DNA of 64,000 nt from Rhizobium sp. ACO-34A (GTDB lineage: Bacteria; Pseudomonadota; Alphaproteobacteria; Rhizobiales; Rhizobiaceae). The notes beneath the pieces were generated by a model, which had not been told where the DNA came from, made no database searches, and saw nothing but the letters and a program-made list of their open reading frames with translations. The translations under genes were made by a program, and so were the position numbers. Where the stretch lies: the NCBI GenBank assembly GCA_002600635.1, contig CP021371.1:685001-749000 (forward strand), read 5' to 3'. Positions 35,593 through 58,352 of this stretch are shown one piece after another (within the stretch, counting starts at the first letter, position 1; every line of letters starts with the position of its first letter).

Positions 35593-35666
35593 GCGGGTGT
35601 AGCTCAATGGTAGAGCAGCAGCTTCCCAAGCTGAATACGAGGGTTCGATTCCCTTCACCCGCTCCA
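35593..35666 (+). tRNA. tRNA-Gly (CCC anticodon)
   Basis: 74 nt with encoded CCA. Acceptor GCGGGTG pairs with CACCCGC, the anticodon arm is GCAGC-TTCCCAA-GCTGA (one mismatch at the first pair) and the T-arm is AGGG-TTCGATT-CCCT. Anticodon CCC reads GGG. The prophage integrase begins 137 bp downstream, so the 3' half is the likely attachment core. TTGACA at 35553 may be its -35. Confidence 0.95.
35627..35666 (+). other. Probable left attachment core (3' half of tRNA-Gly)
   Basis: The 3' half of the tRNA (anticodon loop to CCA) is where tyrosine integrases of this kind recombine, and it keeps the tRNA intact. The exact crossover cannot be fixed without attR. A direct repeat of this end is expected at the right prophage border. 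Confidence 0.55.
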
Positions 35667-41024: not shown

Positions 41025-42131
41025 TCAAACGCACATGGGCATCAGGACGATCAGGTTTTCGGCGTGGTCGCCATCGGCGCGGAGAACGGCGGGGGAGCCG
41101 GCCTCGCCGAGATAGATGTTGACCGTCTGTTCCGAGAGGTTCGCCAGCGCATCGTTGACGTATTTGGCGTTGAAGCCGGTCTCGAGGTTGGCCTCGCCCT
41201 CATAGGCGATCTCGTCCTCGGCATTGCCGGCGTCCGGGTTGTTGACCGTGAGCCTCAGCACTCCGTCGGCGAAGGTGAGCTTTACGGCGCGGCCGTTTCC
41301 GGTGGAGACGGTCGAGACGCGATCGATGGCGGCCGAGAGCGCCTTGCCCTCGACCTCGATGAATCGCTCGCAGGCGGGGATGACGCGGCGGTAATCCGGG
41401 AAGGTGCCGTCGATCAGCTTCGACACCAGCAGCATCTCGCCTATCATCACGCGGATCTTGGCGTCGGAAACCTGCAGCGTGACGTCCTCTTTCGGCATGT
41501 GCTTGATCAGCACCTCGACGGTTTTCCTCGGCACGATGACGCCCGGCATGGCCTGCGGTACGCCTTCGAGCGGGATGAAGCGTTTCGATAGGCGGTGCCC
41601 GTCGGTCGCGACCAGCGTCAGCCCGCCCTCGGAGGGGTGGAGATAGATGCCGTTGAGGTAATAACGGGTCTCCTCGGTGGAAATGGCGAAGCGCACCGCG
41701 CCGATGGCGCGCTCCAGAGCTGCGCCCGAAACCTCGATGGCGAACGGCATTTCGCCGGCATCGAGCGACGGGAAATCCTGCGGCGGCAGAACCTGAAGAC
41801 GGAATCGGGAACGGCCGGATTTGAGGGTGACGCCGGAAAGTTCTGCATCGGCGGCATCGACGCGGATATCCGCGCCATCGGGCAGCTTCTTGACGATCTC
41901 CATCAGCAGATGCGCGGGCACGGTGAAGCCGCGAAAATCGGTGTCGATGCTGGCCGCGAACGGAATGGTGGCCTCGATATCGAGGTCGGTCACCCGGGCC
42001 GTCAGCTTGCCGGTCGTGCCCAGCCGTTCGAACAGCACGTTCTGCAGCACGGGAATGGTGTTGCGGCGCTCGACGATCTGGCCCACCAGCTTCAGGGCGT
42101 CGAGCATGGCGGATTTGCTTGCGGTGAACAT
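41025..42131 (-). CDS. dnaN: DnaN-like DNA polymerase III sliding clamp
   Basis: 368 residues, three repeated clamp domains. It opens MFTASKSAMLDALKLVGQIVE and ends LIVLMPMCV, like the conserved C terminus of bacterial beta clamps (VLMPMR). ATDGHRLSKRFIPL and IPVLQNVL are further beta-clamp blocks. It would form a ring dimer on DNA and recruit polymerase. A host copy is normally elsewhere in the genome; this one lies in the prophage early operon between MazG-like and hypothetical genes. Confidence 0.9.
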   Translation of the reverse strand: MFTASKSAMLDALKLVGQIVERRNTIPVLQNVLFERLGTTGKLTARVTDLDIEATIPFAASIDTDFRGFTVPAHLLMEIVKKLPDGADIRVDAADAELSGVTLKSGRSRFRLQVLPPQDFPSLDAGEMPFAIEVSGAALERAIGAVRFAISTEETRYYLNGIYLHPSEGGLTLVATDGHRLSKRFIPLEGVPQAMPGVIVPRKTVEVLIKHMPKEDVTLQVSDAKIRVMIGEMLLVSKLIDGTFPDYRRVIPACERFIEVEGKALSAAIDRVSTVSTGNGRAVKLTFADGVLRLTVNNPDAGNAEDEIAYEGEANLETGFNAKYVNDALANLSEQTVNIYLGEAGSPAVLRADGDHAENLIVLMPMCV

Positions 42132-43867: not shown

Positions 43868-44368
43868 CTAAAAGGGGATGTCGTCGTCGAGGTCGCGGGA
43901 GAAGGATCCTGCGCCGGTCTGGCTGCCCACGGCGCGGGTGGTGCTGCCGGAGGCCCGATCGCCGTCGAGGCCGTAGTCGCCGGGGCCATCGCCGCCCTGG
44001 CGGTAGCCGGAGCCTTCCGAGCGATCGAGCAGGAGGAGGCTGGCGTTGAAGCTCTGCAGCACGATTTCGGTCGAGTAGCGGTCCTGGCCGTTATTGTCCT
44101 GCCACTTGCGGGTGGCGAGCTGGCCCTCGACGAAGACCTTCGACCCCTTCTTCAGGTATTGCTCGGCCACCTTGGCGAGCGCCTCGTTGAAGATGACGAC
44201 GGAATGCCACTCGGTCTTTTCCCGGCGCTCGCCGCTATTGCGGTCGCGCCAGGTCTCGGAGGTCGCGACGCGCAGATTGGCGATCGGTCGTCCGTCCTGG
44301 GTGCGGCGGATCTCGGGGTCGGCGCCGAGATGGCCGATGAGTTCGACCCTGTTGCGGGAACCGGCCAT
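43868..44368 (-). CDS. ssb: Single-stranded DNA-binding protein
   Basis: 166 residues. The OB fold runs from [21 protein letters not shown] to about residue 110 with WHSVVIF and [12 protein letters not shown] glycine-rich linker and the acidic tip DLDDDIPF follow, the tail that docks host replication and repair partners. I start at the ATG giving [10 protein letters not shown]; it shares one base with the stop of the upstream gene (TAATG). Confidence 0.93.
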
Positions 44369-44727
44369 TACACACCCTCCGCAATCGCCGGGGCCGTGGG
44401 CAGCGGCCATGCCATGGATGCGCCGAGTAGCGCGGTGGCAAGCAGCAGCCCGCCACCCGGCTCGGTCATTGCCCGCTGGTCGCCCTCGACGATGCGGGCG
44501 GCGAACTCGACGGCGGCCCAGAAATCCACCGGACCGGCGGCGCAGCTGCCATCGCTGTTCTTCAGCGCGACGGCGCCATCGGAAAAGCTGCGGGTGAGGG
44601 GCGAGCCATCCTTGTGGGTGCCGCCGATCAGGCTGCCGGCCTCGTCCGTCAGGCAGAGGCTGCGGCCGGAGAGGGGAAACTCCCGGATGGTGATGACGCT
44701 GATTGCAGGAGCGGGAACGAGCATCAT
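44368..44727 (-). CDS. Hypothetical phage protein, 119 residues
   Basis: [20 protein letters not shown] at the start; a hydrophobic [17 protein letters not shown] segment near the C terminus could be membrane-associated. No family recognised. ATGA overlap with the upstream gene. Confidence 0.5.
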
Positions 44728-46945: not shown

Positions 46946-47182
46946 TTAGTTCCTCGCGGTCTGGGTCACGGCCTTGCGGCGGGCGATCTCGCGGGCTTCG
47001 GGGGCGAGGCGCTTGATCGTGTCGACTGTCCAGCCGCACTCGACAAGGGTCTCAAGGCTGACATTGCGGCCGGCAAAGGCCAGCTCGCGCATGTCATCCG
47101 CCATCCTCTCCTGCAGGGAGCGGATGCAGCGCGACGGCTGCGGGACTGGGGTGGGGTCGGGTATCCGTTGAAAGCGGATCAT
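46946..47182 (-). CDS. First gene of the leftward early operon, 78 residues, unknown
   Basis: MIRFQRIPDPTPVPQPSRCI, then a helical segment with a possible helix-turn-helix-like stretch (LETLVECGWTVDTIKRLAPE) and a basic tail. It is the first gene after the left promoter and leader hairpin, the place where lambda N would be, but the protein does not look like a known antiterminator. Confidence 0.6.
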   Translation of the reverse strand: MIRFQRIPDPTPVPQPSRCIRSLQERMADDMRELAFAGRNVSLETLVECGWTVDTIKRLAPEAREIARRKAVTQTARN

Positions 47183-47298: not shown

Positions 47299-47330
47299 TA
47301 TGGGTACAATATATACCAATATGTAGTCAA
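47299..47330 (-). promoter_or_regulatory. Left promoter-operator unit (operator A)
   Basis: On the - strand: TTGACT (47330-47325), 5 nt, then TTGGTATATATTGTACCCAT and one more A (47319-47299). The 21-bp operator is identical to that of the right unit at 49565-49585 and has the symmetric core GGTA-N7-TACC. It should control the leftward operon and bind the repressor. Confidence 0.75.
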
Positions 47331-47334
47331 GATG

Positions 47335-47357
47335 AATTGGTGCAAATAATACCAATT
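47335..47357. promoter_or_regulatory. Operator B of the immunity region
   Basis: AATTGGT-N9-ACCAATT, perfect 7-bp arms, with the core GGTG-CAAATAA-TACC, the same GGTR-N7-TACC pattern as the other operators, 36 bp from operator A. On the + strand it could overlap a promoter for the secreted/WYL-TerB cassette. The remaining 150 bp up to 47,505 holds no gene I can support. Confidence 0.65.
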
Positions 47358-47504
47358 CGATATTGATGGGAAAAAGTGGGTGGAAAACGTCACCGCTGAG
47401 GGTGTTTTGATTCGCTGGCAGAAGCGTGGATCGGCCACGTCGCATGGGTTGACCTGCAAAAAGCCGAAGGTAATTTGAGGTTGAGGGCTTGAAAGGGGAT
47501 TGGC

Positions 47505-48008
47505 ATGCTTAGGGTATTGGTGACGCTTGTTTCGGTGGCGGCGTTTTCGTCTGCCGCGTGGGCCGGGTTCGACAGCTGGACGGCGGAGGTTGAGAACGAT
47601 CCTTTCTCCGGCGGGCAGCGGGTGACGGTCGGAATTACGACCTCGATGCGGTCCGGTGTGGTGATTTTCTGCGACACGTCGGAGAAGGGGCTTACCGTCC
47701 GTGCCATTCCGGGCTTCGCATTCGAAAGTGGCATGACGGGTTTCGCGCCGGAGATGGAGTTCGCCATTGACGGAGAACGTTTGCTTGGTCAGTCCGGAGA
47801 GACTGGTGCGGTCGGAGATAATATCGCCGTCTCGGAGGTGAAGCTGTCGCCGGAGAACGCCAAGCGCTTCATGGACGCCTTCGCAGCCGCCAAGAAGCAG
47901 ATCGCCATCAAGGACGGCATCAGCGATCGTCCGCACCTGATGCCTGCGCGCGGAACGACGAAATCCGGTCAGGCGCTGTTGGGTTGCATGGGCAAGCAGG
48001 CACCGTGA
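47505..48008 (+). CDS. Secreted protein of unknown function in the immunity region
   Basis: 167 residues with a clear signal peptide (MLRVLVTLVSVAAFSSAAWA, cleavage after AWA) and no other membrane helix, so exported to the periplasm. The mature part is beta-rich with two cysteines (VVIFCDTS and LLGCMGK). AAAGGGG precedes the ATG. It is followed after 1 bp by the WYL-TerB gene and lies between the left operators and the repressor, where lysogenic-conversion genes often sit. No family recognised. Confidence 0.75.
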   Translation: MLRVLVTLVSVAAFSSAAWAGFDSWTAEVENDPFSGGQRVTVGITTSMRSGVVIFCDTSEKGLTVRAIPGFAFESGMTGFAPEMEFAIDGERLLGQSGETGAVGDNIAVSEVKLSPENAKRFMDAFAAAKKQIAIKDGISDRPHLMPARGTTKSGQALLGCMGKQAP

Positions 48009-48009
48009 T

Positions 48010-48867
48010 ATGGCGCTCTTCCTAACAACGGCTATTGCTGTCGCGCTTGCGGCTGCCATCGTTTACTGGCTGAACGGCCGGGGCTCCCGGACGGTGGGTC
48101 CGGAGGAGGATCTTCCGCCGTTGCGCCAGAGGGAAAGCATTGAGCTTCGGCGTGACCGTCGCCCGGCTCCGTTTGTGGCTCCCGCAGGCATGCCGGTTCT
48201 GGCGGATGCCGCGAAAACGGCTTCACGTCCTGTCGGTTCCCTGACGTTCGACCTGCTCTATCGCGATGCGAACGGCGAGGTGAGTGCGCGGCGCATCGAT
48301 ATCGAGGAGGTCTCGCGCAATTTCGATACCTACTACATCGAGGCGTGGTGCCATCTGCGCCGCGCAGGACGAAGCTTTCGTGTCGACAGGATCCTCGAGC
48401 TTGCCAGCGCGGAGACCGGCGAGGTGATGAGCCCGCCAGTGGAAGGGCTGCGCCGGTATATCCGGGAACAGAATGATCCTGGCCCGGATTTCGGCTCGGT
48501 GATGGGCAAAGCGAGGAAGGGACTGACCGTCCTCATCTGGATCGCCCGCGCCGATAACGATATCTCCGAGAGGGAGGCGGACATTCTTGTCGCCTATATC
48601 GTCGAGCGGGACGCCATGGGAGCGAGATCGAAGGGCGCGCGGGTGTGGAAGGAAGCGGCCGCCCGCAGCTGGATCGACTATCAGCGCCCAACCATGGAGG
48701 ATGCGGCCGGCGCGCGGGCGACGATGGCGTTCTCCGGCAAGGAAGACGCGCTTTGCGCGCGGTTCATCGAGCAGCTGGTTGCCTGCCAGCCGGAGGACGT
48801 TGCAGGAAAGGTCGCCGGGCGCGCAAAAAGGCTCGGCTATGCCTTTCCGGAGGTCAGAAGTCGATGA
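48010..48867 (+). CDS. Membrane-anchored WYL and TerB-like domain protein
   Basis: 285 residues. An N-terminal membrane anchor (about residues 3-20), a linker, then a WYL-like domain at about 76-137 (FDLLYRDANGE, YIEAWCHLRRAGRSFRVDRI). A helical TerB-like domain follows at about 167-260 (IWIARADNDISEREADILVA). WYL domains are ligand-binding sensor modules frequent in phage-defence regulators, and TerB domains are linked to stress and phage-defence systems. There is no DNA-binding domain, unlike WYL regulators. It ends 14 bp inside the convergent repressor gene. The domain names rest on sequence patterns that I recognise and need a profile search. Confidence 0.72.
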   Translation: MALFLTTAIAVALAAAIVYWLNGRGSRTVGPEEDLPPLRQRESIELRRDRRPAPFVAPAGMPVLADAAKTASRPVGSLTFDLLYRDANGEVSARRIDIEEVSRNFDTYYIEAWCHLRRAGRSFRVDRILELASAETGEVMSPPVEGLRRYIREQNDPGPDFGSVMGKARKGLTVLIWIARADNDISEREADILVAYIVERDAMGARSKGARVWKEAAARSWIDYQRPTMEDAAGARATMAFSGKEDALCARFIEQLVACQPEDVAGKVAGRAKRLGYAFPEVRSR

Positions 48868-49504
48868 TGGAGCGGCGAACGCGGCCGATGACCGTTACGG
48901 CTCCATCGAAATCGGGTGCGGGTATTTCCTTGTAGGAAGCTGGCTGGAAGGGCGGATTGTCATCCGGTCGATAGCGCTTGTAGGTTGCTCGCCCATGCTC
49001 GTCGGCGACGACATAGCAGCCGTTCGGGACAAGTCGCCTGTCCCGGCGGTTGACGAATATGATTGAGCCCGGCGGCGAGATCTTGTTCATGGAATCGCCC
49101 TCGACGCGCAATGCGATCCAGTCGCCATCCGGGAGGTCGAGGACGGAGATGGTGGGAAAATCGGACAGGCTTGTCACTGTCGCCTGCTCGCCCAACGCTC
49201 CGGCGCTGATCCACGACATCAGCGGAACATCAATGGCGACAGGAGGGGCGACCGTATCCTCATCCTCAGGTTGCCCTATGCCCAGATAGAGCCATTGGTA
49301 GGATACGCCGAACGCCCTCGCATAGGCGCGAGCATCGGCCGTGTCGAAACCATTGCGGCCGCTCTCGTGCGCCTTGTATGTGTTTTCCTTCCAGCCGAAG
49401 CGGGCGCAGACCTTCCGGACGCCACCGAAGCCGGCTTTTTTTCGCGCTTCGAGCAGGCGCACCGCGCGCGCTTCCCTGTCGATCTGTTTCCGTCCGTCGT
49501 TCAT
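48854..49504 (-). CDS. cI: CI/LexA-type phage repressor
   Basis: 216 residues. The N-terminal helix-turn-helix (VRKVCARFGWKENTYKAHES) is joined to an S24 peptidase domain with S138 (VEGDSMNKISPPGS) and K176 (RATYKRY). The cleavage site A101-G102 lies in WISAGALG. It should repress both early operons and be inactivated by RecA-stimulated self-cleavage. The ATG at 49504 directly abuts an operator, and the predicted -10 (TATAAA on the - strand, 49517-49512) is 7 nt from the ATG, so the message is probably leaderless. An in-frame start 8 codons upstream is less likely. Confidence 0.9.
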   Translation of the reverse strand: MNDGRKQIDREARAVRLLEARKKAGFGGVRKVCARFGWKENTYKAHESGRNGFDTADARAYARAFGVSYQWLYLGIGQPEDEDTVAPPVAIDVPLMSWISAGALGEQATVTSLSDFPTISVLDLPDGDWIALRVEGDSMNKISPPGSIIFVNRRDRRLVPNGCYVVADEHGRATYKRYRPDDNPPFQPASYKEIPAPDFDGAVTVIGRVRRSIIDF

Positions 49505-49544
49505 GGTGCAATTTATACCCTTGCGCATGGGTACAAATCACAAC
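49505..49544. promoter_or_regulatory. Operators D and E before the repressor gene
   Basis: GGTG-CAATTTA-TACC (49505-49519) matches the GGTR-N7-TACC core. GGTA-CAAATCA-CAAC (49530-49544) keeps one good half-site. Operator D covers the predicted repressor -10 and so could give autorepression. Confidence 0.65.
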
Positions 49545-49553
49545 GAAATGCTG

Positions 49554-49585
49554 TTGACAGATTGTTGGTATATATTGTACCCATA
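49554..49585 (+). promoter_or_regulatory. Right promoter-operator unit (operator C)
   Basis: TTGACA (49554-49559), 5 nt, then the same 21-bp operator as the left unit (49565-49585) with core GGTA-TATATTG-TACC. The ATG of the Cro-like gene follows 5 bp after the operator, leaving no room for a ribosome-binding site. Confidence 0.75.
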
Positions 49586-49590
49586 TCGAT

Positions 49591-49812
49591 ATGACCCATG
49601 CTGGCATCATCAATCTCTGGCCGTCGCTGGCGGCATTCGCCGCCGATATCGGCGTATCCTACGAGACCGCGAAGGCGATGCGTCGCCGTGGTTCGATCCC
49701 GTCCGGATACTGGGTTCGCGTCGTGTCCGCTGCATCCCGGCGCGAGATTGGCGATGTCTCGTTTGAGCGGCTGGCGGAGCTGGTCGCGGTCGGTCAGGAG
49801 GCTGCCGAATGA
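49591..49812 (+). CDS. Cro-like small DNA-binding protein
   Basis: 73 residues with a helix-turn-helix (LAAFAADIGVSYETAKAMRR) and RRGSIPSGYWVRV, similar to small Cro/YdaS-type regulators. It is the first gene of the rightward operon and divergent from the repressor. No Shine-Dalgarno sequence precedes the ATG, so it is likely leaderless. Expected to compete at the GGTR-N7-TACC operators. Confidence 0.75.
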   Translation: MTHAGIINLWPSLAAFAADIGVSYETAKAMRRRGSIPSGYWVRVVSAASRREIGDVSFERLAELVAVGQEAAE

Positions 49813-49984: not shown

Positions 49985-50440
49985 ATGCGCCCCAGCACCG
50001 AACATGACAGGGCCAGACTGAAGGCCTCGACCCGTGCGGCGATCATCGCGGCCGGCAAGGCGAAGCAGCTTTCAGCCTGCTCACGGGTCAGCGAGGCCCA
50101 GATCAGCCGCTATGTCGGCGATTATCCAGACTTCATTCCGGTCGACGTGATGCTCGACTGCGAAATGCTGGCGGGACAGCCGGTGATTACCGCTGCGCTC
50201 GCCGACATGCAGGGATACCGGTTGGTGCCGATTGCAGGCGAGGATGGCGTCGGCCTGACATTCGATCATGTTCTCGACGCGGTTCACACGGTCGGAGAGC
50301 TGTTGAGGGCGTACCGCGACGGGCATGCCGACGGTCACCTCAACGAGGCCGAGAGGCGGGAAATCACCAATTGCTTCATCGAAAGCCTGAAAAGCTTGCA
50401 GGACGGCCTGCGGGCTCATACGGGAGGGGCCGCACGATGA
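49985..50440 (+). CDS. Putative phage regulator, CII-like position
   Basis: 151 residues. A possible helix-turn-helix (GKAKQLSACSRVSEAQISRY) in the first third, then VDVMLDCEMLAGQPVITAAL and a helical C-terminal half with LNEAERREITNCFIESLKSL. Excellent GAGGAGGTGGC ribosome-binding site. Position right after the Cro-like gene resembles lambda cII, but function is inferred only from that. Confidence 0.65.
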   Translation: MRPSTEHDRARLKASTRAAIIAAGKAKQLSACSRVSEAQISRYVGDYPDFIPVDVMLDCEMLAGQPVITAALADMQGYRLVPIAGEDGVGLTFDHVLDAVHTVGELLRAYRDGHADGHLNEAERREITNCFIESLKSLQDGLRAHTGGAAR

Positions 50441-55274: not shown

Positions 55275-57144
55275 GCTTCTGAAGTTGCATGGCGCAAACC
55301 ATAGCTTCGCTCTCGACAACAGAATGACCATCGTTCTGTTCGCCGGCATGGGCGGTGGATGTGACGGGTTGGAGCAGGCCGGGTTTCCCGTTCACCTCGC
55401 GATCAATCATGATCCGATCGCTGTCGCGGTTCACAAGGTGCGCCATCCGCACACGCGGCATGAACGCTGCGACGTTTTCGAAGTGTGCCCGAAAGCGGCG
55501 ACGAAGGGGCGTGGCGTTCGCGCGCTTCATGCCTCGCCGGACTGCACGCATTTTTCCGTTGCCAAGGGCGGAAAGCCGGTCTCCAGCCGGCGTCGTTCGC
55601 TGGCATGGGTGGTCTGCCGTTGGGCGGGCCAGGTCGAGCCTGAGACGATCACGCTTGAGAATGTGCCTGAAATCCAGACGTGGGGTCCGCTGATCGCCAA
55701 GCGCTGCCCGAAGACGGGCCGCGTCATGCGGCTTGATGGCTCTGTCGCCGCCAAGGGTGAGAGGGTTCCCGTTCAAGAACAATGGCTGATCCCGGACCCG
55801 AAGCATAAGGGCAGGATCTGGCGCGCTTGGCTCAAGCACATGGCCGGATTGGGCTACAATTTCGAGGGCCGTGTTCTGGTCTGCGCGGATTATGGCATTC
55901 CGACCATCCGCAAGCGCTATTTTGGTGTCGCGCAATACGGCGATGCTCCGATCGTCTGGCCCGAGCGGACGCATGCGCCGCGCAAGGACGCGAAACGGCT
56001 CGGCCTCAAGCCGTGGGTCGGCGCGCACACCATCATCGACTTTTCGCTGCCGGTGAGATCGATCTTCGGGCGCAAGAAGGATCTGGCGGAGGCGACGCTT
56101 CGCCGGACGGCGCGCGGCGTCATGCGCTACGTCGTCGATGCGGCGAAGCCGTTCATCGTGCCGATCACGCATACCAAGGGATCCAATCAGGCCCGTTCCA
56201 CCGACGAGCCGCTTTGCGCCATCACCACGGCAAAGGGCGGGGAAAACATGGTGGCCGTGCCCCATGTCGCCGTCATGCGCAACAGCGGCAAGCCGTATAG
56301 CGCCGGCAACGAGCCTTTGCAGGCTTTGACGGCGGGCGGGGCGACTCCGGCTCTTGTTTCCACATCGCTGGCGCCGATGATCATGGGCGTTGGTGGTCGC
56401 GCTGCGCAGACGGAAACGCGCGACCCGCGCGACCCACTTGGCGCTGGCACCACGAAGGAGGATCGCGTCGTCATCGCCGCGTCGTTGCAACGGCAGTTCG
56501 GCGAAAGCAATGGCGCGGATGTCGAAGAACCGGTTCCAACGCTTGTGGCGGAAGGGCAGGGCAAGACGGCTCTCGTCTCGGCATTCCTTGCGCAGCACAA
56601 CGACGGGCCAAGGGCGGGAATTTCGGCGCGTGACGCGCTTGACCCGGTTTCGGCGCTGACGACGACCGGCTCGCAACAGGGTGTCGTCGCCGCCTCGATG
56701 CTGAACCTGCGCGGCACGGATAAGACGGGCCGGGATATCCGCGATCCACTATCGGCCGTGAGCGCCGGCGGAAACCATGCCGGCCTGATCCTTGGTTTCC
56801 TGCAACACTATTACGGCACGGGAGGTCAGGATCAGTCATTGGCCGATCCGCTCGGAGCACTCACGGCAAAGGCCCGGCACGGTCTGGTTACCGTAAAGCT
56901 GGGCCGGGAAACCTATGTCATCACGGACATCGGCATGCGCATGCTGGAACCGGAAGAAGGGGCGGCGGCCCATGGCTTCGCGAAGGGTAGCTTGCCGGAC
57001 GCGATCGAGCTGGATGGCAAGGTCGTAAAGCTCACCAAGGCGCAAAAATACCACCTGGTCGGCAACAGCGTTCCGCCGAAGATGATCCGGCTGCTGGCGG
57101 AATGCAATGTCCGGCGGGAGTTGGTGATGGAGGCGGCGGAATGA
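55264..57144 (+). CDS. DNA (cytosine-5) methyltransferase with tandem repeats
   Basis: 626 residues. C5-methyltransferase motifs: I at 25-40 (LFAGMGGGCDGLEQAG), IV with catalytic C94 in SPDCTHFS, VI ENVPEI (132-137), and X GNSVPPKM (600-607). Between residues 314 and 545, seven imperfect units of about 36 residues with the core [DE]P-[LV]-x-A-[LIV]-[TS] and a following L-V segment fill the region where the target-recognition domain lies. GGAGGTGAG precedes the ATG. It should protect or mark phage DNA together with the helicase-methyltransferase upstream. Confidence 0.88.
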   Translation: MKAKLLKLHGANHSFALDNRMTIVLFAGMGGGCDGLEQAGFPVHLAINHDPIAVAVHKVRHPHTRHERCDVFEVCPKAATKGRGVRALHASPDCTHFSVAKGGKPVSSRRRSLAWVVCRWAGQVEPETITLENVPEIQTWGPLIAKRCPKTGRVMRLDGSVAAKGERVPVQEQWLIPDPKHKGRIWRAWLKHMAGLGYNFEGRVLVCADYGIPTIRKRYFGVAQYGDAPIVWPERTHAPRKDAKRLGLKPWVGAHTIIDFSLPVRSIFGRKKDLAEATLRRTARGVMRYVVDAAKPFIVPITHTKGSNQARSTDEPLCAITTAKGGENMVAVPHVAVMRNSGKPYSAGNEPLQALTAGGATPALVSTSLAPMIMGVGGRAAQTETRDPRDPLGAGTTKEDRVVIAASLQRQFGESNGADVEEPVPTLVAEGQGKTALVSAFLAQHNDGPRAGISARDALDPVSALTTTGSQQGVVAASMLNLRGTDKTGRDIRDPLSAVSAGGNHAGLILGFLQHYYGTGGQDQSLADPLGALTAKARHGLVTVKLGRETYVITDIGMRMLEPEEGAAAHGFAKGSLPDAIELDGKVVKLTKAQKYHLVGNSVPPKMIRLLAECNVRRELVMEAAE

Positions 57145-58352
57145 TCCAGCCCACGCTTTTCGAAGGGTCAAAGCGTCTCGTCTATGACGAGGCCGTCGAA
57201 CTGACGCTGCAATCCATGCAGGCCTACGGGTCGGTGCATGATCATTGGGTGTTCGCATTCTCCGGCGGCAAGGACAGTACTGCGACGCTGACCGTCATCA
57301 TCCATTTGATCGACGCCGGACGGCTCGCTCCGCCGAAGTCGATCACGGTGCTCTATGCCGACACTCGCATGGAGCTGCCGCCGCTCTCGATCGCCGCCCA
57401 ACGTCTGCTCGACCGGCTGCGCCTGCGCGGGATCCATTGTGAAACCGTATGCGCACCGCTCGATCAGAGATTCCTCGTCTACATGCTCGGGCGCGGTGTG
57501 CCCCCGCCGAACAACAACACGTTCCGTTGGTGTACCCGGCAAATCAAGGTCGATCCGATGACGATGGCGCTGGAGCGCCGCATCAACGAACTCGACGGCT
57601 CTATCTTGATGATCACCGGCGTTCGTCAGGGCGAAAGCGCGATCCGCGATGGCCGCATCGCCATGTCATGCGGCAAGGACGGCGCGGAATGCGGTCAGGG
57701 CTGGTATCAGCAGGTCGTGCCGGAGGCGAGGGGCATTCGCGGCCGGATCGCCACGCTGGCGCCCCTCCTGCACTGGCGGGTCTGCAATATCTTCGACTGG
57801 CTGAAGATCTATGCCCGCATGCAGGAATACGGCGCGTGGGACACCGGTCCCGTCGTCGATGCCTATGGGGGCGACGAGGCGCAGGAGATCAATGCGCGAA
57901 CCGGCTGCAACGGCTGCCCTCTGGCGGCGCGGGATCTGGGTCTGGAGACGGTGCTTCGTGTTCCATACTGGTCCTACATCGCTCCGCTGCTCGGGCTGAA
58001 GCCGCTCTATCGCGAGCTTCGGGAGCCTCGGAACCGCCTGAAAAAGACGGGTATCGACGGGAATGGCGATATTGCCAGGGCGAAGAACAAACAGCGCATG
58101 GGGCCGCTGACGTTCGACGCTCGCCTGATGGCGCTCGACCGGGTGCTTTCCATTCAGTCGGAAATCAACCTTGAGGCCATGCGTCTCGGACGGCCGCCCG
58201 TCGACATTCTCAACGCCGAGGAAGAGGCGAGGATCCGGGAGCTGATCGCTCTCAAGACCTGGCCGAACGGATGGGACGGCGATGAGCCGACCGCGGACAC
58301 GCCGATGGATGCCGTCTTTGCGGACGGCTCCATTCAACGGTTGCTGGTATGA
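57141..58352 (+). CDS. PAPS reductase/DndC-like PP-loop protein
   Basis: 403 residues. The PP-loop AFSGGKDSTATL (39-50) marks an adenylating N-type ATP pyrophosphatase. RWCTRQIKVDP (C131), GVRQGESAIRDGR and a C-terminal CNGCP (C256, C259) follow the pattern of DndC and phage PAPS-reductase homologues, with C177 and C184 extra; an Fe-S cluster is plausible. DndC takes part in DNA phosphorothioation, but no dndD or dndE partner is visible here. Starts in the C5-methyltransferase stop codon. Confidence 0.8.
   Translation: MIQPTLFEGSKRLVYDEAVELTLQSMQAYGSVHDHWVFAFSGGKDSTATLTVIIHLIDAGRLAPPKSITVLYADTRMELPPLSIAAQRLLDRLRLRGIHCETVCAPLDQRFLVYMLGRGVPPPNNNTFRWCTRQIKVDPMTMALERRINELDGSILMITGVRQGESAIRDGRIAMSCGKDGAECGQGWYQQVVPEARGIRGRIATLAPLLHWRVCNIFDWLKIYARMQEYGAWDTGPVVDAYGGDEAQEINARTGCNGCPLAARDLGLETVLRVPYWSYIAPLLGLKPLYRELREPRNRLKKTGIDGNGDIARAKNKQRMGPLTFDARLMALDRVLSIQSEINLEAMRLGRPPVDILNAEEEARIRELIALKTWPNGWDGDEPTADTPMDAVFADGSIQRLLV

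Follow-up and report, generated by a model that had tools for sequence, protein, structure and literature searches.

A candidate lambda-type immunity switch with operators at both early promoters in a Rhizobium prophage

Paired operators and gene order of the probable immunity region

We analyzed a 64,000-nucleotide stretch of the Rhizobium sp. ACO-34A genome (hereafter the window), which contains the left part of an approximately 54-kb prophage integrated in a tRNA-Gly gene. Within it, a set of repeated palindromic sites very probably constitutes the immunity switch of this integrated temperate phage, built like that of lambda. The sequence TATGGGTACAATATATACCAA at 47299–47319 is the exact reverse complement of 49565–49585, and under an order-1 model only 4.5e-11 second copies of this 21-mer are expected in 64 kb. 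This inverted pair, which the original prediction had described as repeated base for base on opposite strands, was recovered exactly, as was a TTGACW hexamer 5 nt upstream of each copy. The three additional sites that had been proposed were also found, two of them (47339–47353 and 49505–49519) matching GGTR-N7-TACC exactly and the third (49530–49544) with one mismatch. The resulting elements of the left operator (OL) and right operator (OR), with the leftward (PL), rightward (PR) and repressor (PRM) promoters, are as follows; ranks are from the weight matrix described below.

47299–47319, – strand: left 21-bp copy holding OL1 (core 47303–47317); matrix rank 1 (tie) in 104 kb
47325–47330, – strand: TTGACT, predicted –35 element of PL
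47339–47353, – strand: OL2, predicted operator; matrix rank 4 in 104 kb, spacing of 36 to OL1
49505–49519, unstranded: OR3, predicted operator abutting the repressor ATG; matrix rank 3, position kept in 20 distinct loci
49530–49544, unstranded: OR2, predicted operator with one degenerate half, over the predicted –35 region of PRM; matrix rank 5
49554–49559, + strand: TTGACA, predicted –35 element of PR
49565–49585, + strand: right 21-bp copy holding OR1 (core 49567–49581); matrix rank 1 (tie)

The genes around these sites fit the lambda type, with a divergent repressor and Cro-like gene flanking the operators, a CII-like gene downstream of the Cro-like gene, as expected for such a region, and a gene for a single-strand binding protein (SSB) in the leftward operon. 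A second operator set, as in a lambda-type region, is present at the predicted leftward early promoter.

48854–49504, – strand: prophage repressor, 216 amino acids, XRE-type helix-turn-helix and S24 self-cleaving peptidase domain
49591–49812, + strand: Cro-like gene, 73 amino acids, predicted to be leaderless; ATG 28–31 nt past TTGACx in 20/20 loci
49985–50440, + strand: CII-like regulator gene (phrog_101, E 5.2e-12; PF06892 under the cut-off)
43868–44410, – strand: SSB gene of the leftward operon (PF00436)

The original prediction had placed both the repressor and the Cro-like gene between the two 21-bp copies. This holds for the repressor, which lies there together with two + strand cargo genes (47505–48008 and 48010–48867), but not for the Cro-like gene, which starts at 49591, to the right of both copies. 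The repressor matched PF00717 above the cut-off, PF12844 (HTH_19) slightly under it, and phrog_4; its cleavage and catalytic residues, A101-G102, S138 and K176, are the same in all 10 sequences aligned (the window and nine others). The predicted fold of the 73-residue product was nearest to Cro proteins, which makes it a candidate Cro-fold partner. Searches of solved structures by sequence returned nothing for the repressor at E 0.01, and the Cro-like protein had two weak matches (a glutamate receptor fusion, E 0.013, and protein XPH1, E 0.27). The gene at 46946–47182, in the first position of the left operon, where a lambda-type region would have an antiterminator, matched only phrog_31312, a family with no assigned function.

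From this arrangement we infer binding, promoter activity and induction as follows. In a lysogen, repressor dimers would occupy the 15-bp palindromes. At the two early promoters, left and right, the spacer and predicted –10 element are overlapped by OL1 and OR1, respectively, and repressor bound there would keep both operons off. OR3 lies over the –10 element of the repressor gene and ends at its start codon, and would thus set the repressor level; it is also where the Cro-like protein would switch the repressor gene off. Following DNA damage, self-cleavage of the repressor at A101-G102 would release both operons together.

Conservation of the layout among related prophages

As the original prediction had suggested, we searched related prophages for the motif beside their repressor genes. 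Relatives were sought at three taxonomic levels, with 18 of 63 genomes matching in the genus (E 0.001), 35 of 394 in the family (E 1e-15) and, with the N-terminal part of the repressor as the query, 26 of 397 in the order (E 1e-8), the window's own genome being counted at each level; one further scan covered genome contigs and three covered viral contigs. Seven Bacillus loci (L013–L019, 27% identity) were dropped before counting, and L001–L010, which represent places of the bare motif and the neighbouring chromosome, also lie outside the counts. Of the 105 repressor-matched loci, repeat fetches included, the layout fitted 30 rows, which correspond to 20 distinct loci including the window and 10 repeats (the window four times, and L011, L012, L046, L047, L048 and L075 once each). 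L012 and L022 were compared letter by letter to establish that they are repeats; the remaining repeats were recognised from a shared handle or contig name or from values that agreed exactly.

The 20 distinct loci share one arrangement, namely OR3 up to the repressor ATG, OR2, TTGAC, OR1 and then the ATG at the Cro position. Every one of the 20 has an OR3 that ends at the repressor ATG. Counted from the start of OR3, TTGAC lies at 47–49 nt and OR1 begins at 58–62 nt, and the Cro-position ATG lies 8–10 nt past OR1 and 28–31 nt past TTGACx; in six loci the ATG taken was the later one, an earlier ATG being set aside. OR2 departed from the palindrome by 1–3 mismatches in 19 loci and by 6 in L012. 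An OL pair, sought by script as two sites at a spacing of 32–39 nt, with a combined total of up to 3 mismatches and within 3 kb of the repressor stop, was found with a spacing of 34–37 in each of the 18 loci that were long enough (L032 and L057 end too early). Between OL2 and OL1, 14 of these 18 carry an exact TTGAC, and TTGCG, TTGAT or TTGCC occurs in L012, L021, L045 and L075. Five loci fetched once the motif and layout had been fixed (L105–L109) all fitted. Together with the gene order, this layout supports the proposal of twin promoter-operator units of a lambda-type switch.

It could be argued that the two 21-bp copies reflect a recent promoter duplication without regulatory meaning, since they are identical over 21 bp and retain partial similarity over 43 bp (77% complementary). 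The relatives make this explanation extremely improbable. L011, whose repressor is 89% identical, retains both cores, and its identity to the window is 43/45 in the OR sites and 29/30 in the OL sites, compared with 34/41 and 69/123 aligned columns outside them (end gaps counted). The two copies no longer share the same letters in distant relatives, which keep the palindrome and the spacing nonetheless.

None of the other 75 loci showed the full layout by script. Among individual cases, L054 contains a stray site with 2 mismatches and L080 has single sites at –58 and downstream. L084 matched at 52.9% over a short part and has no sites. In L081, from another family of the order and with a repressor 33% identical overall, the layout was present by eye with a one-base shift. 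In the more distant L094, L096, L059 and L030, palindromes near NGTACA-N3-TGTACN occur close to the repressor, and their form suggests a related operator class.

Specificity of the operator motif

GGTR-N7-TACC had been proposed as a specific recognition sequence, a claim that scatter of the motif over the genome would count against. In the 6,284,736-bp genome we found 126 strand-wise matches (55 and 71; 364 and 375 for the reversed control), and with up to one mismatch the window contained 51 matches against 28.6 expected. With this scatter the bare motif would fail the original prediction's own test, and we rejected it as an immunity signature. Only the fuller palindrome GGTRYA-N3-TRYACC, derived by aligning the window with L011, L012 and L021, is specific, and it should replace GGTR-N7-TACC: it occurs at 4 places genome-wide (2 for the control), three of which are OL1, OR3 and OR1.

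The window had guided the choice of this palindrome, so a fairer test is provided by a weight matrix. The 50 distinct sites used to train it came from 18 relatives, excluding the window and L011, its closest relative. In 104 kb it placed the five proposed sites at ranks 1–5, with scores of 24.1, 24.1, 22.3, 20.8 and 15.1 bits, the next position scoring 10.2. Among the entries listed by a literature search, whose coverage was thin for subscription journals, no description of this operator appeared.

The protein that reads the sites

The N-terminal domain of the repressor was at least 50.6% identical to that of the window in all 20 fitting loci. By comparison, 13 of the 75 non-fitting loci encode repressors that are 50–62% identical over the aligned part, with an N-terminal domain below 35% identity or unmatched. 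This split indicates that the operator follows the DNA-binding domain of the repressor. Cro proteins often use the same operators as the repressor, and the sites could accordingly be read by the Cro-like protein, or by another phage or host regulator, instead of the S24 repressor. We consider this very unlikely: the sites track the repressor domain over the matched loci, the refined motif has just one other place in the genome, and the sites persist in L047 and L048, where BLASTP found no match to the Cro-like product, which points to the repressor as the reader.

In L012, L021 and L075, where the recognition region lacks the RNG motif, 18 of 24 half-sites were flanked by TA; the corresponding count for the remaining 17 loci was 2 of 128. 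These three loci suggest that immunity subgroups may be defined by the type of recognition helix.

Predicted promoters and leaderless mRNAs

Two –10 elements were predicted near the start codons.

49512–49517, – strand: TATAAA, predicted –10 element of PRM, 7 nt before the ATG
49578–49583, + strand: TACCCA, predicted weak –10 element of PR, within the right 21-bp copy

For the hexamer whose end lies 7 nt upstream of the repressor ATG, matches to TATAAT averaged 4.65 of 6 across the 20 loci, whereas the best other offset (0–29) reached 2.95. For PR, matches to TAnnnT also peaked at 7 nt upstream of the Cro-position ATG (2.0 of 3, the next being 1.6), but the support is weaker than for PRM, since the six-letter score was 2.75 at 14 nt and 2.1 at 7 nt. 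TATATT was ruled out as the –10 element of PR, being separated from TTGACA by just 11 nt. A better argument for PR than the –10 score is that TTGACx and the ATG keep a constant distance. Given this distance and the offset of the PRM –10 element, both mRNAs are predicted to begin at or next to the ATG, which suggests that the repressor and Cro-like mRNAs are leaderless.

In the window, OR2 spans about –26 to –40 from the repressor ATG, over the predicted –35 region of PRM, which makes self-activation in the lambda style doubtful. A variant of the lambda-type switch is thus conceivable, with odds somewhat against it, in which the repressor acts by repression only and is unable to stimulate its own promoter in the manner of lambda CI. 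Besides the position of OR2, this variant would be favoured by the outer half of OR2 on the repressor strand, which is ATTAC or GTGAT in 13 of the 20 loci (by eye). However, the promoter positions are predictions, contact could be made through another face of RNA polymerase, and OR2 is near-perfect in two loci.

A variable slot between the repressor and OL

The distance from the repressor stop to OL2 ranged from 71 to 1646 nt over 18 loci, and the variable slot corresponds to 47354–48867 in the window. Four loci with slots of 71–109 nt (71 nt in L021 and 109 nt in L012) have no open reading frame (ORF) there. Other slots hold differing ORFs; L058, for example, has a GNAT-like protein (by eye), and L049 and L075 each encode small proteins that appear to carry signal peptides. 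The slot of the window holds two genes.

47505–48008, + strand: cargo gene 1, 167 amino acids, apparent signal peptide (by eye); no Pfam match, kept in L011
48010–48867, + strand: cargo gene 2, 285 amino acids, WYL domain

Cargo gene 1 matched 126 proteins including the window's own, some on long rhizobial contigs, and no functional name appeared among the 120 of these matches that were listed; it is possibly a host-derived moron. Cargo gene 2 had two relatives among 8000 candidates scored. In the slot of L011 only cargo gene 1 is intact, and the 3΄ end of cargo gene 2 is apparently retained (by eye). The pair was rejected as a named defence system, as there was no model for gene 1 and solely WYL-domain models for gene 2. 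The position of the slot recalls that of lambda rex, although both cargo genes in the window run opposite to the repressor.

In L046, L047, L048, L105, L106 and L107, a similar ORF-like stretch (...NSRADEAQRRGKRKSLSALSENQDEGEANGPSG...) begins approximately 30 nt from OL2. The slots of L046, L107 and L109 gave no Rfam match to a structured RNA.

Comparison with known switches

In lambda, cI and cro diverge around three OR sites, the –35 element of PR lies between OR2 and OR1, and OL is on the leftward early promoter. The same plan is observed here, with the difference that OR2 covers the predicted –35 region of PRM. Lambda has six operators of 17 bp, according to one report (PMC4997575), whereas we found an OL pair, with a possible third OL site in L021 and L075.

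The five-operator plan is shared with the immB region of N15 and phiKO2, in which, according to the same report, the divergent repressor and cro genes enclose three operators and another operon has two OL sites upstream of it, the repressor binding all five and phiKO2 Cro only OR3 (PMC4997575). The operators described there are 16 bp (TA-N10-TA), compared with 15 bp and TA-N7-TA or a degenerate form here; the repressor described there had no detected self-cleavage residues, which are present in that of the window; and N15-type prophages are linear plasmids, whereas the present one resides in a tRNA gene of a 4.75-Mb contig. In PY54, another report describes cI and cro mRNAs that were both leaderless by rapid amplification of cDNA ends (PMC4488713), a property proven there and suggested by geometry here; PY54 is described with a single recognisable operator, OR3, compared with five in the window. 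The C repressor of Sinorhizobium (Rhizobium) phage 16-3 is described with operators oL1, oL2, oR1 and oR2 (PMC12429752), so the rhizobial host group and the arrangement in left and right operator pairs are alike.

N15, phiKO2 and PY54 are thus precedents for the plan of five operators and for a pair of leaderless mRNAs. The operator sequence of the present switch is well defined and its own, and related prophages share it. We tentatively raise the rather unlikely idea that these loci form a distinct immunity group of Rhizobiaceae prophages, characterised by OR3 ending at the repressor ATG, OR1 lying 8–10 nt before the Cro-like ATG, two leaderless mRNAs, control by repression alone with OR2 over the PRM –35 region, and a slot that exchanges cargo. 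No DNA match was found among deposited phages, and protein comparison with a collection of 50,697 phage genomes yielded 11 records at E 1e-5 or better, every one below 60% identity. The result thus provides a readable immunity recognition sequence for a prophage group without a close match in that collection, makes immunity groups assignable from sequence, offers a set for comparing recognition helices with operators, and contributes a further candidate for control through two leaderless mRNAs. It leaves the general picture of such switches unchanged, and we regard it as sound and useful but not surprising.

Prophage setting

The prophage is bounded by a repeat of the tRNA-Gly 3΄ end, the second copy of which lies past the end of the window, approximately 54.4 kb away on the same contig.

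35650–35666, + strand: core of the attachment site (att), 17 bp, at the 3΄ end of tRNA-Gly (35593–35666)

The prophage carries a DNA polymerase III beta clamp at 41028–42131. At 57102–58349, a phosphoadenosine phosphosulfate reductase-like gene (phrog_12882) adjoins a DNA methyltransferase gene, and the two could possibly form a DNA modification module.
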